Shown: positions 3,065 to 18,264 of the stretch, piece after piece | How the letters are laid out: each line of letters begins with the position of its first letter | How positions within the stretch are numbered: position 1 is the stretch's first letter | Source of the DNA: a virus | Reading direction: 5' to 3' (one strand) | Virus record (IMG/VR): IMGVR_UViG_3300047564_005329 | Coordinates: 1-25,498 of that record | DNA length: 25,498 nt | Made by a program: the position numbers and the translations under genes | Notes under the pieces: model-generated | The model's input: only the letters and a program-made list of their open reading frames with translations | What the model was told of the DNA's origin: nothing | Databases searched by the model: none

Positions 3065-3625
3065 ATGGTAGCAGAAGTAAAAACGTGTCGCAAAGGCTTG
3101 CATGCATATGATGCAACCTTGAAAAAATGTCCAGATTGCGCAAGAATTTCCAGAAAACAACGTTACTGGAAAAACAGAAATAATGAACTTTTACAAAATA
3201 AAAAATGGCGTGAAAGCAACAAAAAATACGTCAGAGCATATAGAAGGAAATGGTACCAACAAAATAAAAGTTACTTTCAAAAGTGGTGGAATAAAAATAA
3301 AGAAAAAGGCAGTTTAAAACGGGAAGAATGGAAAAGAAAGAATAAACACAAATTAATTGAAAGTTACAACAGAAGGCGCGCGCTTAAGTTAAACGCAGTT
3401 CCTCAATGGGTGGACGTCGTTAAAATTCAAAACATCTACAAGGAGGCCTCTGTTCTAACAAAAATAACAGGAATACAACATCATGTAGATCACATTTATC
3501 CACTAACAAGTAAATACATGTGTGGTTTACATGTACATACAAATTTACAAATATTAACAGCCGCAGAAAATCTTTCTAAGGGGAATCGGGTTTGGCCTGG
3601 TCAACTTGACTGCCAAAAAGATTAG
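3065..3625 (+). CDS. HNH homing-type endonuclease, copy A
   Basis: The 186-residue protein begins with a zinc-ribbon-like Cys pattern (CRKGLHAY, then CPDCAR, residues 8-25), continues through a very basic Lys/Trp-rich linker (about 28-115), and ends with an HNH nuclease module, HHVDHIYPLTSKYMCGLHV followed by TNLQILTAAENLSKGN. The His-His-x-Asp-His pair and the downstream Asn residues fit the metal-binding catalytic core. It is a clear paralogue of the gene at 17569-18264, sharing the nuclease end through LDCQK and the leader hairpin. It appears to be a free-standing mobile endonuclease placed between unrelated genes. The stop overlaps the convergent gene at 3622 by four bases. Confidence 0.85.
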   Translation: MVAEVKTCRKGLHAYDATLKKCPDCARISRKQRYWKNRNNELLQNKKWRESNKKYVRAYRRKWYQQNKSYFQKWWNKNKEKGSLKREEWKRKNKHKLIESYNRRRALKLNAVPQWVDVVKIQNIYKEASVLTKITGIQHHVDHIYPLTSKYMCGLHVHTNLQILTAAENLSKGNRVWPGQLDCQKD

Positions 3626-6891: not shown

Positions 6892-7203
6892 ATGGAAGAT
6901 CAAATTCCCCCCAGCCAGCCACCCATTCAATTTTCACCTCAACCAGAGATCACACCTGAGCAACTTGCAGAACTGAAGGAGCGTGCTCGCCAGCTGGCAA
7001 TCCAGCAAACCATCGCTCAACAAGCTGCAATGCCGAGGCCACAACCTCAGACACAACCGCAGGTGGTCTACGTGCGCCGCAACCTGACTGTCGCCGAGCT
7101 GCTTGTGGTATTCGTGATTGCTTGCGGCATTGTCACCGGTGTTCAAGCAGGCTGGAATTTTGTTTCCAATTTCTTACCACGCCTTGAGATTAGGGTGAAG
7201 TAA
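6892..7203 (+). CDS. Small single-span membrane protein
   Basis: ATG at 6892 (MEDQIPPSQPP) is preferred over the in-frame GTG at 6871 and gives 103 residues. The first 60 residues are rich in Pro and Gln and contain a helical stretch (LKERARQLAIQQTIAQQAA). One transmembrane helix follows (ELLVVFVIACGIVTGVQAG, about residues 70-90) and then a short basic C-terminus. The shape, with a long soluble N-terminus and a single late membrane span, would suit a membrane-anchored virion or lysis factor, but I recognise no family. It starts the plus-strand block containing the tail fibres. Confidence 0.65.
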   Translation: MEDQIPPSQPPIQFSPQPEITPEQLAELKERARQLAIQQTIAQQAAMPRPQPQTQPQVVYVRRNLTVAELLVVFVIACGIVTGVQAGWNFVSNFLPRLEIRVK

Positions 7204-7221
7204 GACCTGGAATAACGGAAC

Positions 7222-7227
7222 TATAAT
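7222..7227 (+). promoter_or_regulatory. Candidate -10 box before first tail fibre
   Basis: A consensus TATAAT lies 29 bases before the GTG start of the tail-fibre gene, in the 53-base gap. A second TG-TATACA string sits at 7243-7250 but is too close to the start to be the main promoter. No TTGACA-like -35 is obvious. Confidence 0.35.
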
Positions 7228-7256
7228 TGATTTAAAGGTATTTGTATACATAAGTA

Positions 7257-9041
7257 GTGGCCAACCGCAGAATTAGTGACCTGCAAGAATTAGCAGGCCT
7301 CAACCTTGATGAAGGGGATCTGTTTACGGTTGTCCATATTAATGAGGTTGATCCGGCGTTAAAAAACAAAAAGATCACCGTCTCTGGAACCAAGCAATAT
7401 TACAATCTTTACTATTTACCGCGCACTGGTGGCACCATCAGTGGTTCTGTTTCTATTCAAAATGACCTCACAGTCAGCGGAAACTTAACCGTTACAGGTG
7501 CCATCGTCAGCGCTCAGACCTTTACCGTTAGTGGTCTGACGGTCCAGAATGACGCAACAATTAGTGGTGCTGTCACTGTTGGCACCCTGACTGGTTCGAT
7601 TGTTCAAGGCAACAGTCTTTACGGCATCAATACAACCACCACAACAATCACAGGTACTGCCGCTAATTTCACCAGTGGTCGGTTCCAGTACATCTCTGGT
7701 GCCACCATTACAGGTGATACGACACGCGTTAATACACTCACTGGTATCTGGGGCGATTTTACCGGCACGCTGAGCGGCGCCACAATCACTGGTAATACAG
7801 CAAGATTCTCAACGGTTACCGGAGTATCTGGCACCTTTGCTTCTGGGACATTTACGTCTCAAGTTTCTGGTGCAACAGTTACCGGAAATACTGGACGTTT
7901 TACGACACTCACTGGAATCTCTGGTGTCTTCACATCACAAGTCAGCGGTGCAGTCGTTACGGGCGATACGGCACGCGTCAGCAGCATCACGGGTGTCAGC
8001 GGCGTTTTTACTAACACTCTATCTGGTGCTACAATCACCGGCACAGTTGGTAATTTCACAACTGGTGTTTTCCAAACACTGACAGCTGTTAACCAAAGCT
8101 TCAGCAACCTGATTATCAGCGGTGATTTTACCGTTCTCTCGGGTATCTATGTCTCCGGCTCTGGCTACATTGAGTCCGGTTTAAGGGTCAACAACACAAT
8201 CAGTGGCGTCACCTTCACTGGTACAACAGTTAACGCTGTAACAATTAATGCAAGTTCCGGGAATTTCCAAAACGTCAGTGGAAATACAATTACTGGAACA
8301 ACCATTAATTCTCCAACAATTTCTGGAGGAACTGTTACTGGCACTACAGCTCAATTCACAGTAATTACGGGTGGAACAGCAGGGTTCACAACTGTTACCG
8401 GCACTACGGTTACCGGCACAACTGCCAACTTTGTTACCGGTGTTTTTACAACACGAATCAGCGGTGTAACACTACTGGCAACTACAGGTCAAATTGGCAC
8501 TTTAACGGGTGACACCGCAGGATTTACATCTGTAACTGGCACTACGGTTAGCGGTACAACAGCAAACTTTGTATCCGGCACCTTTACATCTCGAATTAGC
8601 GGCGCTGCGGTCACCGGTGATTCAGCTGGATTTGGCACCGTCACTGGCAATACGGTTACCGGAATTACGGCCAATTTTGTCTCTGGTGTTTTCAGCACAC
8701 AAGTCAGTGGAGTTACATTCACTGGAACAACTGCTCAATTTACGGTTGTTACTGGTAGCACCGCAGGATTTACAACAGTTACAGGCGCCACTGTCACTGG
8801 TACTACTGCGAATTTCAACACAGTATCTGGCACAACGGTCACCGGTGGTAATGCAAACTTTGTATCCGGGACATTCTCGACACGCATCAGTGGAGGGGCT
8901 GCCGCGTTCACAAGTATTACAGGCAATACTCTTGCAATCACCACGCCATCTGGCGCAACACCTGCCATTGTTTGTTCTGGTGTTGTATCTGGTGGAACAA
9001 GTGGTTTTGTTATTGCCGGGCCGTTAATTATTCTTCCATAA
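7257..9041 (+). CDS. Repeat-rich tail fibre protein
   Basis: The 594-residue protein starts with GTG at 7257; the N-terminus MANRRISDLQELAG followed by EGDLFTVVHINEVDP is, from memory, typical of cyanophage fibre attachment domains (residues 1-60). From about residue 58 to 560 it is built of degenerate repeats of roughly 18-25 residues around SGATITGNTARFSTVTGVSG, rich in Thr, Gly, Ser and Val, which predicts a beta-solenoid or triple-stranded shaft. It ends in a short hydrophobic VIAGPLIILP and has no obvious globular receptor tip, so the next fibre gene may supply the tip. The repeats also produce long open frames on other strands that are not genes. Confidence 0.85.
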   Translation: MANRRISDLQELAGLNLDEGDLFTVVHINEVDPALKNKKITVSGTKQYYNLYYLPRTGGTISGSVSIQNDLTVSGNLTVTGAIVSAQTFTVSGLTVQNDATISGAVTVGTLTGSIVQGNSLYGINTTTTTITGTAANFTSGRFQYISGATITGDTTRVNTLTGIWGDFTGTLSGATITGNTARFSTVTGVSGTFASGTFTSQVSGATVTGNTGRFTTLTGISGVFTSQVSGAVVTGDTARVSSITGVSGVFTNTLSGATITGTVGNFTTGVFQTLTAVNQSFSNLIISGDFTVLSGIYVSGSGYIESGLRVNNTISGVTFTGTTVNAVTINASSGNFQNVSGNTITGTTINSPTISGGTVTGTTAQFTVITGGTAGFTTVTGTTVTGTTANFVTGVFTTRISGVTLLATTGQIGTLTGDTAGFTSVTGTTVSGTTANFVSGTFTSRISGAAVTGDSAGFGTVTGNTVTGITANFVSGVFSTQVSGVTFTGTTAQFTVVTGSTAGFTTVTGATVTGTTANFNTVSGTTVTGGNANFVSGTFSTRISGGAAAFTSITGNTLAITTPSGATPAIVCSGVVSGGTSGFVIAGPLIILP

Positions 9042-9082: not shown

Positions 9083-9613
9083 ATGACAAAACCTAAGCCA
9101 TTACTTAGTTTTGAGGAGTTGGATAGTGTTTTTAAAATTGATGAAACAAGCCCATCAGGTTTAAGGTGGAAAAAGGGAAAAAGTACAGGATTGAAAGCAG
9201 GTGGCATTAGAGATGGCCAATACTGGTTTGTTAAATACAAAGGAGAATGTTGGTCTTGCCAGAGAATTATTTGGATGCTTGCTTTTCAACAAGATCCTGG
9301 AATCATGGAAATTGATCACATAGATCAAAATAAACAAAATAACAAGCTAGAAAATTTACGTCTTGCATCAAAAGCTTCTAATTGTCATAATAGACAGTTA
9401 TGCCAAGAAATTAAAAACAAAAAAACAAGTAAATACAAAGGGGTTTATTGGCACAAACCCCGAAATCGATGGCGGGCAAGAATCGTAGTAAGAAGAAAAG
9501 CAATAGAACTTGGCAGATACATCAATGAAATTGATGCTGCTAAAGCATATGACAGAGCAGCAAAAAAGTTTTATGGAGAGTTTGCAGTCTTAAATTTTCC
9601 CAAGGACAAATAG
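9083..9613 (+). CDS. HNH-AP2 homing endonuclease
   Basis: The 176-residue protein has an HNH nuclease domain (about 25-100), seen as IIWMLAFQQDPG, MEIDHIDQNKQNNKLENLR and NCHNRQ, and an AP2/ERF DNA-binding domain (about 115-172), seen as SKYKGVYWHKPRNRWRARI, then GRYINEIDAAKAYDRAAK and FYGEFAVLNFP. The Asp-His of IDHID and the Asn residues after it are the expected catalytic elements. AP2-HNH proteins are typical free-standing homing endonucleases of phages. It sits exactly between two tail-fibre genes and is AT-rich compared with the second fibre, which supports recent insertion. It does not share the leader of the HNH genes at 3065 and 18264. Confidence 0.92.
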   Translation: MTKPKPLLSFEELDSVFKIDETSPSGLRWKKGKSTGLKAGGIRDGQYWFVKYKGECWSCQRIIWMLAFQQDPGIMEIDHIDQNKQNNKLENLRLASKASNCHNRQLCQEIKNKKTSKYKGVYWHKPRNRWRARIVVRRKAIELGRYINEIDAAKAYDRAAKKFYGEFAVLNFPKDK

Positions 9614-9644: not shown

Positions 9645-11537
9645 ATGCCGTACGGTATCTTAAAGTGCGACACCATTACATTTACTTCTAGTGGTGTTGA
9701 TAAGAGTGTAAGCATCTCCGGCTTAGTCCAGAACCCGACGTTCAGCGGAAATATCACATCGACTGGCACCATCTCCGGTGTAACAATCCAGGGTGGAACA
9801 CTGGTTTCTGGGGCAACTGTCACTGGTTCTGCTGGTCAATTCACAACAGCAACCGTTGTTACAGGTGTGTTTGCTTCTGGTACAGCAGCTGCACCTTCTA
9901 TTACATTTGCAGGAGATTCCAACACCGGTCTGTACAGCCCCGGCGCTGATCAGGTGGCGATCAGCACTAGCGGGACGGGGAGGTTGTTTATCGACTCCTC
10001 CGGCAGGCAGTTGGCTGGCACATCTGCTGCTATTACCACAATGGGGTCGCCTGCAGGAGGTATTACCCCTCAACAGCAGTTAGTAGGGTCGTCTTTTGCA
10101 ACGGCAAGTGCGGCCATTATTCGGTCTCAAGGTGGCAGCGCGCAACTTTTTATTGCTGCTGGTTCATCAGTCGCTAACGTATTAAGTGGAGACCGAATAG
10201 GCGGCATATATTTTGACGGCTACCATACTGATGGTTACTATCAAGCTGCCTCTATTGAAGGCAACGTAGACGGCACCCCCGGCACCAACGACATGCCGGG
10301 AAGGCTTGTCTTCTCGACCACGGCCGATGGGGCTTCGAGTCCTACGGAGCGCCTCCGCATCACCAGCGACGGGAAGGTGGGGGTGGGGACCAGTGCACCA
10401 TCTCAACAGCTTGATGTGCGCGGGCCTGTAGGAAATACAGCATATTTTGCCGCCTTTGGAGACGCCAGCCTTCCCAGAATCCTCGTTGGATACAACCCAA
10501 CGGGTGGAGCTGGCACAACTGATGCCGCAGCAATCAGTGCAGACAGTATCGGCTCTCTTAACTTATTTACAAGAACAGGTGTTGCCAACAATATTATTCT
10601 TGGCACTAGCACTGGAACTGGTGCAGCGGTCGAACGCGCCCGCATCGACTCCTCCGGCCGCCTGCTGGTGGGGACGAGTGCAGGAAGGACGATTGGCACC
10701 GGCAACTTTCAAATACAAGCCGAAGGCACAGGAGCTGAATCTGGAATTTCATTAACCAGAAACACAAGTAGTTCAGCTTCCTCAAATTTACGTTTTGTCA
10801 AAAGCAGGGGTACAACAGCTGGGTCTACGACGATTGTTCAAAGTGGCGACGATCTGGGAGTGCTCAGCTGGTGGGGCACAGACGCAGTAGGTGCCGTTGA
10901 AGCTGTAAACATTAAAGCAGTGGTCGACGGCATCCCCGGCACCAACGACATGCCGGGCAGGCTTGTCTTCAGCACCACTGCCGATGGGGCTTCAACTCCT
11001 ACGGAGCGGATGAGGATTACCAGCTCAGGTAATGTCCTCATCGGAACTACATCCACCACAGCCAACGGCGGTGTGCTGCAGGTTTCGAACGGCATCACCT
11101 TCCCCGCCACGCAATCGGCCTGCTCGGATGCCAATACGTTGGATGATTATGAGGAGGGTGTTTTTACACCAACAGTAGCTGGCTCAAGCACAACTGGAGT
11201 AGGCACATACACTGTGCAGTCTGGTAAATACATCAAAACAGGAGGTCTGGTCTACATTGAAGTGGCGATGACATGGACAGCACACACAGGCACTGGGCAG
11301 CTGTGGTTTACGAGCCTTCCTTTCGCCTCTCCCTCCACAGGCAATGGACCTGGAGTTTCTTTTGGACGCATAAGTAATATTGCTCTTACTGCCAATAATT
11401 TACTTTTGGGTTACGTTGCAAGCAACTCTACGATTATACCTTTGCGTCAGTATCCGGTAGGCGGCGGCGCAGAAGCCACTGTGCCACTGGACACTGCTGG
11501 AGAAGTTAACTTCTCTGTGTCTTACATGGTTGTTTAA
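9645..11537 (+). CDS. Tail fibre / receptor-binding protein, modular
   Basis: The 630-residue protein has an N-terminal segment (1-75) with the same Ser-Gly-Thr-Val repeat style as the first fibre. A shaft follows, containing ITFAGDSNTGLYSPGADQVA and repeated modules that end in a GRLVFSTTADGAS and RITS pattern. The C-terminal domain (about 490-630) reads GVFTPTVAG, GTYTVQSGKYIKTGGLVYIE and GQLWFTSLPF, a jelly-roll-like tip common in phage tail fibres and likely to bind the host receptor. Two 99-base direct repeats lie inside the gene. GC content jumps between modules, which points to domain shuffling. No intramolecular chaperone signature is seen. Confidence 0.88.
   Translation: MPYGILKCDTITFTSSGVDKSVSISGLVQNPTFSGNITSTGTISGVTIQGGTLVSGATVTGSAGQFTTATVVTGVFASGTAAAPSITFAGDSNTGLYSPGADQVAISTSGTGRLFIDSSGRQLAGTSAAITTMGSPAGGITPQQQLVGSSFATASAAIIRSQGGSAQLFIAAGSSVANVLSGDRIGGIYFDGYHTDGYYQAASIEGNVDGTPGTNDMPGRLVFSTTADGASSPTERLRITSDGKVGVGTSAPSQQLDVRGPVGNTAYFAAFGDASLPRILVGYNPTGGAGTTDAAAISADSIGSLNLFTRTGVANNIILGTSTGTGAAVERARIDSSGRLLVGTSAGRTIGTGNFQIQAEGTGAESGISLTRNTSSSASSNLRFVKSRGTTAGSTTIVQSGDDLGVLSWWGTDAVGAVEAVNIKAVVDGIPGTNDMPGRLVFSTTADGASTPTERMRITSSGNVLIGTTSTTANGGVLQVSNGITFPATQSACSDANTLDDYEEGVFTPTVAGSSTTGVGTYTVQSGKYIKTGGLVYIEVAMTWTAHTGTGQLWFTSLPFASPSTGNGPGVSFGRISNIALTANNLLLGYVASNSTIIPLRQYPVGGGAEATVPLDTAGEVNFSVSYMVV
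10269..10367 (+). repeat. Direct repeat copy 1 in tail fibre
   Basis: This 99-base segment encodes DG-PGTNDMPGRLVFSTTADG, then a Pro-Thr-Glu-Arg and RITS end. It is GC-rich and closely matches 10926-11024 at both DNA and protein level. Such in-frame repeats can recombine to change shaft length. Confidence 0.85.
10926..11024 (+). repeat. Direct repeat copy 2 in tail fibre
   Basis: This is the second copy of the 99-base module at 10269-10367, in the same frame and of the same length, 657 bases further on. Most differences are at silent or conservative positions. Confidence 0.85.
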
Positions 11538-14910: not shown

Positions 14911-15585
14911 TTACCCTCCTTCATCATAATCGGGAGCATCTTTTGCATCCAAAGGATGATTGATTGTTGGTTTGTAAGAAGCTTCAATTAACTTGTGGAT
15001 CTGACCTGTGGCACGTGCCTTGGTAACTGCCATCAACTTGGCGGGATTTAACTCACGATCAAATGGGGTCATGGCTTGCGGCGGAAACAAGCGATTCCAG
15101 CTGGAGACCAGATGTAGTGGGTTGCCGCACCAGGGGTTTTTGCAGATGCGTGTCACTGGCATGGAGCCGATGTCTCCCCAGGAGCACACATAAATTGCTT
15201 TGTGTGGCGACATGTTTTCAGAGAGCTGCTTGGAATACGCAGCCCTATAGGACGGAAAACACGTGCGTTTTGGGGTTTTTGCTCCAGGGACATTCATGAG
15301 CCAGCAGTCCTCCCAGTCACGCACCTGGATGAACTGCCACAGCTTCATGATTTGTTTTTTGTAGTACGGATCGATGTAGTTGACGTCATACCCACAGAGA
15401 TTGGATTGGATCTTGACAGCGCAGTGGTAACACCAGTGACCATCGACATCACGAATGGTATGGCTGAAGGGACACGGAAATCCCTTGTAATACCCATGAG
15501 ACTCAAGTTGAGAATTGCTGAGTTCGTTGATCCGTGGGACGTAACGGAAAACAGCGGTTGATTTGTGAGTGAGAAGGTTTGCCAT
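14911..15585 (-). CDS. Zinc-binding HNH-like protein of cyanophages
   Basis: The 224-residue protein carries two metal-site clusters: CPFSH with DGHWCYHC (about residues 38-56), and RICKNPWCGNPLHLVSSWNR (about 145-165). The second cluster has the Cys-x4-Cys-x-Asn-Pro-x-His-Leu order of HNH nucleases of the treble-clef class. Between them lies FPSYRAAYSKQLSENMSPHK, then YVCSWGDIG. From memory the whole arrangement is conserved in T4-like cyanophage proteins of unknown function, so it may be a fixed phage gene and not a recent invader. It overlaps the upstream HNH-like gene by a TAATG. Nuclease activity is inferred from the motif only. Confidence 0.65.
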   Translation of the reverse strand: MANLLTHKSTAVFRYVPRINELSNSQLESHGYYKGFPCPFSHTIRDVDGHWCYHCAVKIQSNLCGYDVNYIDPYYKKQIMKLWQFIQVRDWEDCWLMNVPGAKTPKRTCFPSYRAAYSKQLSENMSPHKAIYVCSWGDIGSMPVTRICKNPWCGNPLHLVSSWNRLFPPQAMTPFDRELNPAKLMAVTKARATGQIHKLIEASYKPTINHPLDAKDAPDYDEGG

Positions 15586-15917
15586 TACTCAGCAAGAATT
15601 GGACAGGGCTTCGGTGGTTTGCGGGCAGGTGGTTTGCGGCTTGCAAACAGCTCTAAGCGGTTGTCTTTGGTCTCATTAGAAGACTCATGTTTGACGTCGT
15701 AGTTGTTGGGTAGTTCACCTGTACGCATGTAATAAACGATTCGGTGCGCCAGGTACAGCTGGTTGTCCACGAAGAGCTGGTAGTAGCCCGTCCTCTTGTT
15801 GAGGCGTCCTGCCTGCTCCCCCCGCTTGTAGCCGGCCTTTGGGACGGCCCACTCCAGTCCTGACGGGTATTTATCGGACAGGGAGAACAGCTCCTCCAGG
15901 TGCCAGAGGGGTGGCAT
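15585..15917 (-). CDS. Degenerate HNH endonuclease-like protein
   Basis: ATG at 15917 gives 110 residues; an in-frame TTG at 15959 would add 14. The protein follows the HNH homing-endonuclease plan: LEELFSLSDKYPSGLEW, a GYYQLFVDNQLYLAHRIVYY segment, then NNYDVKHESSNETKDNRLEL. The usual (I/V)DH at the catalytic turn is V-K-H here, so the conserved Asp is lost, and the DNA-binding C-terminus is replaced by a short Pro/Lys tail. It is probably inactive or decaying. Bases 15781-15900 are about 62% G+C by hand count, against about 32% in 15961-16020, a sign of foreign origin. It overlaps the next gene by TAATG. Confidence 0.65.
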   Translation of the reverse strand: MPPLWHLEELFSLSDKYPSGLEWAVPKAGYKRGEQAGRLNKRTGYYQLFVDNQLYLAHRIVYYMRTGELPNNYDVKHESSNETKDNRLELFASRKPPARKPPKPCPILAE

Positions 15918-15978
15918 CTCCACGTAGAAGCGGGACACGTTGCAGTAAACCGAGAACAAACAAGGATTCTATTCGGTT

Positions 15979-16122
15979 CTAAGCAGAATGACATTTTGAT
16001 ATCAAAGTGTAATGGTTTTTTCACGGTTTTTGATTTGCTTCCAATTTCCTTTACTCATTTTGAGTCTCATAAGACCGTTAAAAACCCATTACACTTTTGG
16101 GCCAAAGTGTAATTCTGCTTAG
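15979..16122. repeat. Long inverted repeat, 48-bp arms
   Basis: Arm 1 (15979-16026) and arm 2 (16075-16122) are reverse complements at 39 of 48 positions with no gaps, separated by a 48-base AT-rich loop. Outward, weaker pairing continues for about 12 bases. Each arm is itself partly palindromic and carries AAAGTGTAAT or ATTACACTTT (16005-16014, 16088-16097, 16104-16113, plus one degraded copy near 15990). Three of the nine arm differences would be U-G pairs in a plus-strand RNA. It lies in a gene-free stretch (15918-16307) and could be a replication origin, a multi-operator site, a non-coding RNA or a remnant of a small mobile element. Confidence 0.75.
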
Positions 16123-16228
16123 GACCAGGTAGAAACGGCTTTTGTTCTAGGTTTACTGCACCACCTCCACCCTCTAGTCTCACCTTCCAACCAAAAACCA
16201 AGTCCCCGTGGGACCCCACTGTCATATA

Positions 16229-16245
16229 AGTCTCAACCTGAGACT
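16229..16245. repeat. Short perfect hairpin, 7-bp stem
   Basis: AGTCTCA and TGAGACT pair around a three-base ACC loop. It lies 10 bases beyond the T-run end of the terminator at 16256-16279 and has no T-run of its own. GAGTCTCA also appears in the loop of the long inverted repeat near 16061. Confidence 0.45.
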
Positions 16246-16255
16246 ACTTGCCGAC

Positions 16256-16279
16256 AAAAAACCCCCTGTTTCCAGGGGG
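16256..16279 (-). terminator. Rho-independent terminator for glycosyltransferase
   Basis: Read on the minus strand: CCCCCTG, a GAAA tetraloop, CAGGGGG, then six T residues. It starts 28 bases after the stop codon of the GT4 gene at 16308 and is the strongest terminator in the window. It ends the minus-strand block of 21398-16308. Confidence 0.92.
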
Positions 16280-16307
16280 CTGTACAGATATTCCCGAAGC
16301 AAACGTA

Positions 16308-17585
16308 TCAGACCAGAGCCAGCTCCTTCTCTTTTTTTTGTTTTTGTTTCCGGTTTTTGCGACGTTTGGGGGCGATGGGGGGAGCATCCACCGTGTGATC
16401 CACCTCCTTCAGCACGTCTTCAAAGATGCCGCCAAACTGAGACGCAACTGTATCCCATGCGAACTGAGGATCAGTCACTCGTAAGTGACAGAGTTCAGCT
16501 GTTGCGTCCAGCTTCTCGCGATTCTCGTAGAGATCCGTCAAAATCTCCGCCAGATGGTCAGCAGAGGGGCATGGCATCTCACGTCCATAGTTCACGTCAA
16601 CGTCCACGTGCTCGTTCTTAATAAGCCTTCCATAGCCCTCAAACACTTCTTTGGTGCTGGTATGGTTGGGCACTACTTGCGCCACCTTGCAGGCGGCATG
16701 CTCAAAGTTGACAAGTTCCCAGCCACCACCTTTGGTGGTGTTAATACCAACATCACAAGCGTTATAGATAGTATTTAATTCTTCAACAGAAACGGACGGA
16801 GGACTAGGACTAGTTGTTGTAAGAATGATGCGACCATTGGGATCTAGCTTTTGTTTTTCCATTTCTCGCGCAAACAGCTGCAAAATATCCCAGCCCTGAT
16901 CTTTAACCCCACAATGCAGATATAATTGAGCATCGGGTTTGTCTTTTGCAAATTTTGCAAAAGCTGTGATTGTAATATCTAACCGCTTACGGAATTGATT
17001 ACGATTTCCATTAAACACTACAAATGAATCCGGTTTAATCCCAAGACGTTGACGAGCTTCCAGTTTATCCATCGGATAAAAAACAGCTGCATCAAGCCCG
17101 TGAGGAATAACAGCAATAGGACGGTTTACTCCAGCTTTAATAAATTCGTGCGCTCCAAATTCGGTAAAAGCAATTAAACCATCCCAATCATTGATATGCG
17201 GGTCAATTCCTCCAAGCCAGTTATAGCTATCCATTGTTAAATATCCAACAAACTTAAATTGTTTTTGTTGGTGTAAATCTTGGATTTGCCGATATTGTTC
17301 AGACACAATCCAAGGATCATTAAGACTGAAGACAATATCCGGACGCTCACGCTCGACAATCTCACGGATACGTTGCTCGCCAAAAGGTGCCTGCTGGAAC
17401 CGATTGGATGCCGGGTACATCTTAAAGTCTTGCTGCTCTTCGCATGGATCGCCATGCCAGTTACATGCAAGAACAACAAATTCAAAATCATCCCTAAGGC
17501 GTGGGAGGATGGCTCCAGACACACGCCCAAAACCAGTTGTTGCTACAAAATCAGCAATCCAAAGAATTTTAGGTTTTTTGGTCAT
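16308..17585 (-). CDS. GT4-type glycosyltransferase
   Basis: The 425-residue protein has the GT-B two-domain plan. The N-terminal domain (about 1-180) opens with KILWIADFVATTGFGRVSGA. The C-terminal domain (about 185-400) has VFNGNRNQFRKRLDI for the phosphate-binding region, AQLYLHCG, and the acceptor/donor-binding stretch VSVEELNTIYNACDVGINTT followed by GGGWELVNFEHAACK, where the Glu residues of the E-x7-E motif lie. The last 20 residues are Lys/Arg-rich. It would transfer a sugar from a nucleotide-sugar donor to an unknown acceptor, perhaps a virion protein or host surface glycan. Its start overlaps the end of the HNH gene upstream by 17 bases, and a strong terminator follows it. Confidence 0.85.
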   Translation of the reverse strand: MTKKPKILWIADFVATTGFGRVSGAILPRLRDDFEFVVLACNWHGDPCEEQQDFKMYPASNRFQQAPFGEQRIREIVERERPDIVFSLNDPWIVSEQYRQIQDLHQQKQFKFVGYLTMDSYNWLGGIDPHINDWDGLIAFTEFGAHEFIKAGVNRPIAVIPHGLDAAVFYPMDKLEARQRLGIKPDSFVVFNGNRNQFRKRLDITITAFAKFAKDKPDAQLYLHCGVKDQGWDILQLFAREMEKQKLDPNGRIILTTTSPSPPSVSVEELNTIYNACDVGINTTKGGGWELVNFEHAACKVAQVVPNHTSTKEVFEGYGRLIKNEHVDVDVNYGREMPCPSADHLAEILTDLYENREKLDATAELCHLRVTDPQFAWDTVASQFGGIFEDVLKEVDHTVDAPPIAPKRRKNRKQKQKKEKELALV

Positions 17586-18264
17586 TGAGAAGGTTTGTAA
17601 GTTCTTTAGGAAATATATCGCAAATCAAACCTTTTTGACAGTCAAGTTGCCCAGGCCACACTCGATTTCCTTTACTGCAGTTTTCTGTTGCAGTCAATAT
17701 TTGTAGATTGGTTTCCACATGCAAGCCACACATATAGTCAGAGACCATTGGATAAACATGGTCTACATGATGCTCAATTCCAGTTTCAAGAGTTAAACGC
17801 CTTGCTTCTCTATAAAAGTCAGAAATTTTTTGCTGGTTTGCCCACGCAACAAACCGCTGTTTGCGTTTGGCATTTTTTAATTTGTCGTATGCTAAGCGTT
17901 TATGTGGATTTTGTTTTAACCATTTCTTTGTTTTTTGTTTTTTCTTATTTCGCCATTCACTATCTTGCTTCCAACGTTTTCTTTTTTGAGCATTAATTTG
18001 TTTACGGCGTTTTTCTCGAAATTCTTGATTAGCTTGATAATGCGCTCTTTTTCTTGCGTTGCATTTTTCTTGCGTTTTTCTTTCCTGTGTTAATGCACTC
18101 TTGATTCGATTAGCTCTGAAAACTGGATCAGTTTGATATTTATTCTTAGCATAAGCTCGCCTGCAGTCAGGACATCCCCTCCCATTGCCCGCTGGGATGT
18201 ACCAATGCAGTTTTTTGCGGCACAGCTTGTAGCCTTCACCAGGACAGTCGTTTAAAATACCCAT
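17569..18264 (-). CDS. HNH homing-type endonuclease, copy B
   Basis: This 231-residue paralogue of the gene at 3065 has a Cys pattern (LCRKKLHWY, then GCPDCRRAY, about 14-37), a long Lys/Arg/Gln-rich linker (40-150), and the same nuclease core, HHVDHVYPMVSDYMCGLHV followed by TNLQILTATENCSKGNRVWP. The shared part ends at LDCQK, where copy A stops one residue later. Copy B runs on for 20 more residues (GLICDIFPKELTNLLNDQKT) and overlaps the glycosyltransferase start. It lies just downstream of the primase-helicase and has the same leader stem-loop as copy A. It is probably a mobile free-standing endonuclease. Confidence 0.87.
   Translation of the reverse strand: MGILNDCPGEGYKLCRKKLHWYIPAGNGRGCPDCRRAYAKNKYQTDPVFRANRIKSALTQERKTQEKCNARKRAHYQANQEFREKRRKQINAQKRKRWKQDSEWRNKKKQKTKKWLKQNPHKRLAYDKLKNAKRKQRFVAWANQQKISDFYREARRLTLETGIEHHVDHVYPMVSDYMCGLHVETNLQILTATENCSKGNRVWPGQLDCQKGLICDIFPKELTNLLNDQKT

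Follow-up and report, generated by a model that had tools for sequence, protein, structure and literature searches.

Upstream of a small HNH_3-like gene in a viral genome lies a large inverted repeat, and we asked what function such an element may serve. The window, that is the whole stretch of DNA analysed, comprises 25,498 nt of a 25.5-kb IMG/VR virus record. A preliminary description of the region had left an origin of replication, an operator array, a structured RNA and a non-autonomous element all open; the analyses presented here favour an element of the operator type and contradict the debris of a mobile element.

Lineage of the window

Over 97% of its length, the primase-helicase of the window is 61.5% identical to its counterpart in Synechococcus phage S-EIV1, the sole phage record covering most of this protein, and S-EIV1 was also the only phage record with a homologue of a second gene of the window, designated geneB. 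Since both the primase-helicase identity and the only phage homologue of geneB point to S-EIV1, the window is, judged by these similarities, a member of the S-EIV1 lineage of cyanophages. A megablast search of the whole window against the phage collection gave no match. Among the genome contigs searched, geneB was found in one 4.5-kb contig of a lake MAG, and within what was searched the gene is essentially confined to the S-EIV1 lineage. In the S-EIV1 record (L115, KJ410740.1) the geneB homologue at 7027-7725 (tblastn 7033-7704, minus strand) is annotated as a shorter minus-strand gene plus two small plus-strand genes, which is probably a mis-annotation. Most knowledge of S-EIV1-like phages comes from metagenomes, and their regulation is, as far as we are aware, unstudied.

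Geometry of the inverted repeat

The inverted repeat is far beyond chance. Its hairpin score is 40 and every other hairpin in the window scores below 14, while the gapped score is 42.8 as against at most 10.9 in shuffled sequences. Folded as RNA, the element has a minimum free energy of -78.1 kcal/mol (z -10.1), and none of 200 shuffles was as good. The ungapped arms of 90 nt each are complementary at 70 of 90 positions and are separated by 40 nt, and the symmetry extends to arms of 106 nt (79/106 complementary). The repeat reported in the preliminary description is thus real, but the extent given there covers only the middle of the element, and several of its dimensions have to be revised: the 48-nt arms, said to be identical at 39 positions, are complementary at 37/48; the stretch between them is 72 nt long instead of a 48-base loop, and its inner part also pairs (13/16); and the outward pairing, described as weaker, is as strong as that of the core (20/26). 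The element is AT-rich, with 36.8% GC versus 46.7% for the window, and an Rfam search with it gave no match. That it does not resemble a terminator was correctly noted, the intrinsic terminator of the upstream glycosyltransferase (GT) gene being a separate sequence (Table 1).

Table 1. Coordinates of the element, its motifs and the adjoining genes in the window.
Feature	Position	Strand	Remarks
geneB	14911-15585	-	224 aa; Zn-finger and His-Cys/HNH-like protein; phrog_1872 endonuclease match
HNH_3-like gene	15585-15938	-	117 aa; GTG start
Whole quasi-palindromic element	15941-16160	none	arms 15941-16030 / 16071-16160; gapped arms 15941-16033 / 16067-16160
Motif a, outer copy	15947-15960	+	AAACCGAGAACAAA
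Promoter-like site	15966-15994	-	ATGTCA-17-TAGAAT; 9/12 matches, a weak fit (1.4 expected over the stretch scanned)
b-b' palindrome, right half in gene sense	15988-16013		decayed AAAATGTCAT 15988-15997 (-); AAAGTGTAAT 16004-16013 (+)
Motif a, inner copy	16016-16029	-	AAACCGTGAAAAAA
Motif c, central palindrome	16064-16075	-	GTCTTATGAGAC
Motif a, inner copy, decayed	16072-16085	+	AGACCGTTAAAAAC
b-b' palindrome, left half in gene sense	16088-16113		AAAGTGTAAT 16088-16097 (-) and 16104-16113 (+)
Motif a, outer copy	16141-16154	-	AAACCTAGAACAAA
Motif c, palindrome between terminator and element	16229-16245	-	AGTCTCAGGTTGAGACT (GTCTCA-N-TGAGAC)
Intrinsic terminator of the upstream GT gene	16256-16281	-	separate from the element
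Glycosyltransferase (GT)	16308-17585	-	conserved upstream neighbour

Conservation of the element among relatives

Relatives were gathered with GT, geneB and primase, which yielded 112 loci, 63 of them distinct. Most of the distinct loci carry, between GT and geneB, an inverted repeat with a gapped hairpin score of at least 20, shuffled sequences scoring about 8-17. Hairpin scoring gave nothing significant in L108 and L032, and in the weaker cases (L155-L180) a-like and b-like motifs, judged by eye, occur in the same order with less symmetry. The element was the sole inverted repeat above threshold in 8 of 9 long (full-length) relatives, S-EIV1 included; in the ninth, G007, no inverted repeat passed the threshold by the ungapped measure. 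A check for further copies, proposed in the preliminary description, revealed one element per genome and no second copy. The place of the element is likewise conserved, as nearly every relative found shares the slot formed by the GT stop, the terminator, the element, the small HNH_3 gene and geneB.

Searches with the DNA of the element against phage records returned chance matches only, and the exact element pattern was not found in IMG/VR because the sequence of the element turns over. In seven relatives (L155, L157, L158, L165, L167, L172 and L180) an extra ORF, cupin-like by eye, was observed between GT and the element, upstream of HNH_3; the left border of the element is therefore a place of insertions. 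The primase genes of G006 and G014, otherwise full-length, contain an in-frame TAG and TAA, respectively, by sequencing error, pseudogene formation or recoding.

Recognition motifs and their concerted change

Analysis of the arms revealed a dyad in which two kinds of motif, a and b, alternate with four copies each in the layout a-b-b'-a'/a-b-b'-a'. The three exact copies and one decayed copy of AAAGTGTAAT listed in the preliminary description were found as described, while a second four-copy motif resembling AAACCGAGAACAAA had been overlooked. In gene sense the complete order is GT stop, terminator, GTCTCA-N-TGAGAC, a, b-b', a', the GTCTTATGAGAC centre, a, b-b', a' and start codon. Searching the genomes for the motifs, as had been suggested, indicated that a and b are essentially absent outside the element; S-EIV1 carries one extra b-type copy directly upstream of geneB, beside the sequence TGCTATAAT.

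Motif a is species-specific, and the recognition motifs vary between phages. A close clade of six relatives (L022, L026, L027, L029, L030 and L031) was compared. Five positions of a vary among them, with the readings ACACA, CCGGA, CCGGA, ACACT, ACACT and AGACT. Within a genome these letters are identical in both outer copies and in the inner copy of direct orientation, and the fourth copy agrees with them in part, so that the copies of one genome change in concert. Between a and b, the spacers are asymmetric and largely invariant among these phages. In L026, L027, L030 and L031 motifs a and b have recombined independently of each other. Direct similarity of a to a is clear in many HNH_3-bearing phages, and was not clear in S-EIV1, L007, L011 and L038; self-palindromy of single arms, compared with shuffles, was significant in some phages only.

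The GTCTCA-N-TGAGAC palindrome, motif c, also recurs across the lineage, in front of the element as well as in the middle of it, and its species specificity is lower than that of a and b. A TCTCATGAGA-like sequence occupies the centre of the element in 28/52 relatives against a background of 0.4%, and the upstream palindrome was found in 19/52 against a background of 1%.

The downstream gene and a promoter-like sequence

At the expected codon the HNH_3 gene begins with ATG, GTG or TTG in all 54 readable loci, and the element abuts this start: among loci scoring at least 20, the median distance from its right edge is 1 nt (range -32 to 84), and in the window the GTG lies 2 nt beyond the element. 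In phages without HNH_3 (L011, L038, L084 and L092) the element lies 5-44 nt before geneB, while in S-EIV1, L007 and L008 it ends 120-138 nt before geneB and a b-type motif stands immediately upstream of that gene.

The right half harbors a candidate promoter whose -35-like hexamer is supplied by the decayed b copy. Only the right half, read in sense orientation, has a raised promoter-like score, and the rise is modest (7.69 vs 6.48 in shuffles; 5.73 vs 5.69 for the antisense left half), the sigma-70-like sites being weak and the sigma-70 consensus perhaps not being that of the phage itself.

Proteins encoded downstream and elsewhere in the window

The HNH_3-like protein matched PF13392 at 25 bits (cut-off 24.8) over profile positions 1-34 of 46 only. 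Its H84 is kept among relatives (Y in L036). When the protein was examined for the D-H...N arrangement of I-HmuI, which we take to be the active-site residues of that enzyme, neither the D before the His nor an Asn at the N96 position was found. geneB is highly conserved among relatives. Its signature C-x4-C-x-N-P-x-H-L aligned weakly to I-PpoI (E 1.2), and a near-invariant R146 (K in L039) occupies the position of the catalytic His98 of I-PpoI. The closest PDB chains to its AlphaFold2 model (pLDDT 79.7) were the DNA-binding domains of NFI and SMAD MH1, and I-PpoI, all of them weak (VIA Z at most 4.3, I-PpoI-type fold Z 3.7, best Foldseek E 0.14). Because family matches are combined with missing catalytic residues, both proteins appear to be related to endonucleases and to lack a canonical active site, and both may have lost catalysis.

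Other reading frames of the window were also noted. An AP2 and HNH_3 protein at 9083-9613 (plus strand) aligns to I-HmuI (1u3e); since D, H and N are all kept, it is probably an intact free-standing homing endonuclease, located between structural genes. The product of 17569-18264 (minus strand, between primase and GT) matches phrog_1035 (endonuclease VII), and that of 3065-3625 (plus strand), without a Pfam match, is similar to it by eye; both are possibly F-CphI-like homing endonucleases. The long proteins encoded at 7257-9041 and 9645-11537 (plus strand), which contain many short repeats such as SGATITGDTARF, are probably tail or fibre proteins.

Function of the element

The best explanation of these observations, to which we assign a probability of slightly less than one half (about 0.48), is that the element serves as promoter-operator for an operon that regulates itself and encodes degenerate relatives of homing endonucleases which bind DNA. 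The operon would consist of the HNH_3-like gene and geneB, whose products would have lost catalysis and kept DNA binding. One or both of these proteins, probably as dimers, would bind the two b-b' palindromes and the four a copies, and the bound protein would cover the promoter-like sequence of the right half and so hold expression down. Shifts in protein specificity would then make the motifs vary between phages and match within each genome. Similarity of the inverted repeats tracks that of HNH_3 and of geneB beyond GT (partial Mantel r 0.33 and 0.32, respectively); this correlation does not pick the binder, because both proteins correlate equally and close linkage alone could cause it. When HNH_3 and geneB of the close clade were compared with motifs a and b, the similarity of neither protein followed the motifs cleanly. 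The weak sigma-70-like sites, the weak structural matches of geneB and the gap of 120-138 nt before geneB in S-EIV1, L007 and L008 also speak against this explanation.

A replication origin or a partition-like site, in which a rapidly evolving initiator would use a and b as iterons and the dyad would be opened or nicked to start replication, is unlikely. Palindromic, species-specific iterons are typical of initiator/origin pairs, and the single site per genome, its AT-richness and a primase-helicase gene about 2 kb away would all suit such a role. Against it, an origin has no need to adjoin the start of a downstream gene that is not always the same, and an initiator gene was not identified. 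The GC-skew check suggested in the preliminary description did not point to an origin, as the extremes of cumulative skew are scattered between genomes and show no consistent tie to the element. On the GT side (plus strand of the window) local GC skew is lower in 9/9 genomes; this step was not counted in favour of an origin because on the larger sample it is mostly coding-driven (the average difference in third-position skew is 0.12, with one direction shared by 46 of 63 non-independent loci), and its sign is not that of the usual bidirectional origin.

An RNA hairpin is a shade less likely than an origin. Read-through transcripts would fold and block translation of HNH_3, and transcripts from the right-half promoter would lack the 5' arm, as for the homing endonuclease genes of T4. 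The very stable fold, the stem ending at the start codon and the promoter-like site within the 3' arm are all consistent with this, and endonuclease genes of T-even phages are under hairpin translational control, as in seg43(25) of Aeromonas phage 25, where a very stable hairpin lies just upstream of the ribosome-binding site (PMC2988022). The concerted change of motif a, which we count towards the operator reading, includes compensatory changes: in the close clade five consecutive a pairs all vary, yet are complementary in 6/6, and the covariation score of 0.186 (0.089 shuffled) was reached by 0/500 shuffles and lies above every slid register too. The pairing is concentrated in the motifs, with a paired at 97% and the spacers at 51%, and wobble pairs are not enriched, A.C mismatches numbering 159 and G.T 103 in gene sense in an alignment scored for Watson-Crick pairs only. 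As the mismatches come from loci that are not phylogenetically independent, we state only that G-U is not over-represented on the gene-sense strand. In the window, moreover, a terminator precedes the element. Pairing does not demand that the outer copies equal the directly oriented inner copy of a, which favours a protein with several copies of one site; gene conversion between copies could also homogenise them and would need to be confined to the short motifs. A multi-site protein-binding element acting at the DNA level thus appears, from these patterns of variation, to fit better than an RNA stem.

A little less likely still is a bolder proposal, in which the S-EIV1 lineage would use the element as its replication origin or as an essential centromere-like site, and two domesticated homing endonucleases, by now catalytically dead, would read it. 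The specificity of these proteins would turn over between phages, and relatives infecting the same cell could then neither use nor silence each other's site.

Quite improbable is a role as target site or immunity site for the nuclease-like proteins encoded next to the element, serving homing, recombination or competition between co-infecting phages. Two nuclease-family genes adjoin the element, motif specificity turns over fast and other free-standing endonuclease genes occur in the lineage, but the canonical catalytic residues are missing in both proteins. Furthermore, wherever a contig holds both flanks the HNH_3 gene always has GT upstream and geneB downstream; confined to this one syntenic slot, it is therefore, as far as synteny tells, not a hopping gene here, and the element persists in phages without it.

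Debris of an IS, MITE or other non-autonomous element has only the look of terminal inverted repeats in its favour and was rejected as most improbable, the element being single in each genome and kept in the same place lineage-wide, with neither dispersed copies nor a variable position; the preliminary description had named such debris, or a lack of conservation in relatives, as grounds for abandoning its reading.

Significance and comparison with known systems

Operators and hairpins before phage endonuclease genes are already known. In the accessible parts of the literature that deals with relatives of S-EIV1 or with inverted repeats conserved in phages, no description of the element was found; what appears new, within those parts, is a lineage-wide dyad of four sites whose code changes in concert in each genome and which precedes degenerate endonuclease relatives. 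The element offers a natural data set of dozens of matched site and protein variants in which the motif has changed repeatedly and all copies have followed. Such a pattern is what a fast-changing lock and key of protein and DNA would be predicted to leave. Should geneB or the HNH_3 protein prove to be the binder, selfish endonucleases would have turned into DNA-binding regulators, and protein-DNA co-evolution would be directly testable.

The geneB product carries a Cys-His signature that aligns weakly with that of the His-Cys box enzyme I-PpoI, to which its model is weakly near, and unlike I-PpoI it has extra zinc-finger-like residues at the N-terminus and an Arg in place of the catalytic His. 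From general knowledge, iteron-type origins and P1-type parS resemble the element in their clustered, repeated and inverted species-specific protein sites; unlike these systems, no initiator or ParB partner was identified here and skew does not single out the site.

I-TevI, encoded in the td intron of phage T4, autorepresses via an operator upstream of its own gene that overlaps the promoter (PMC2988022), and the element likewise lies upstream of and adjoins, at a median of 1 nt, a gene of an endonuclease family. In contrast to the proteins encoded downstream of the element, I-TevI is a GIY-YIG enzyme that keeps catalysis, and its operator is one site, whereas the present element is a dyad of 220 bp with four sites whose motifs change in concert throughout the lineage. 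As with I-TevI, I-TevII, I-TevIII, segB, mobE and seg43(25) (PMC2988022), a very stable inverted repeat stands directly before the start codon of an endonuclease-family gene, with a promoter, here a candidate one, inside the repeat. The T-even systems are RNA hairpins that cover or flank the ribosome-binding site, whereas in the present element the symmetry is concentrated in the recognition motifs, with no G-U bias.
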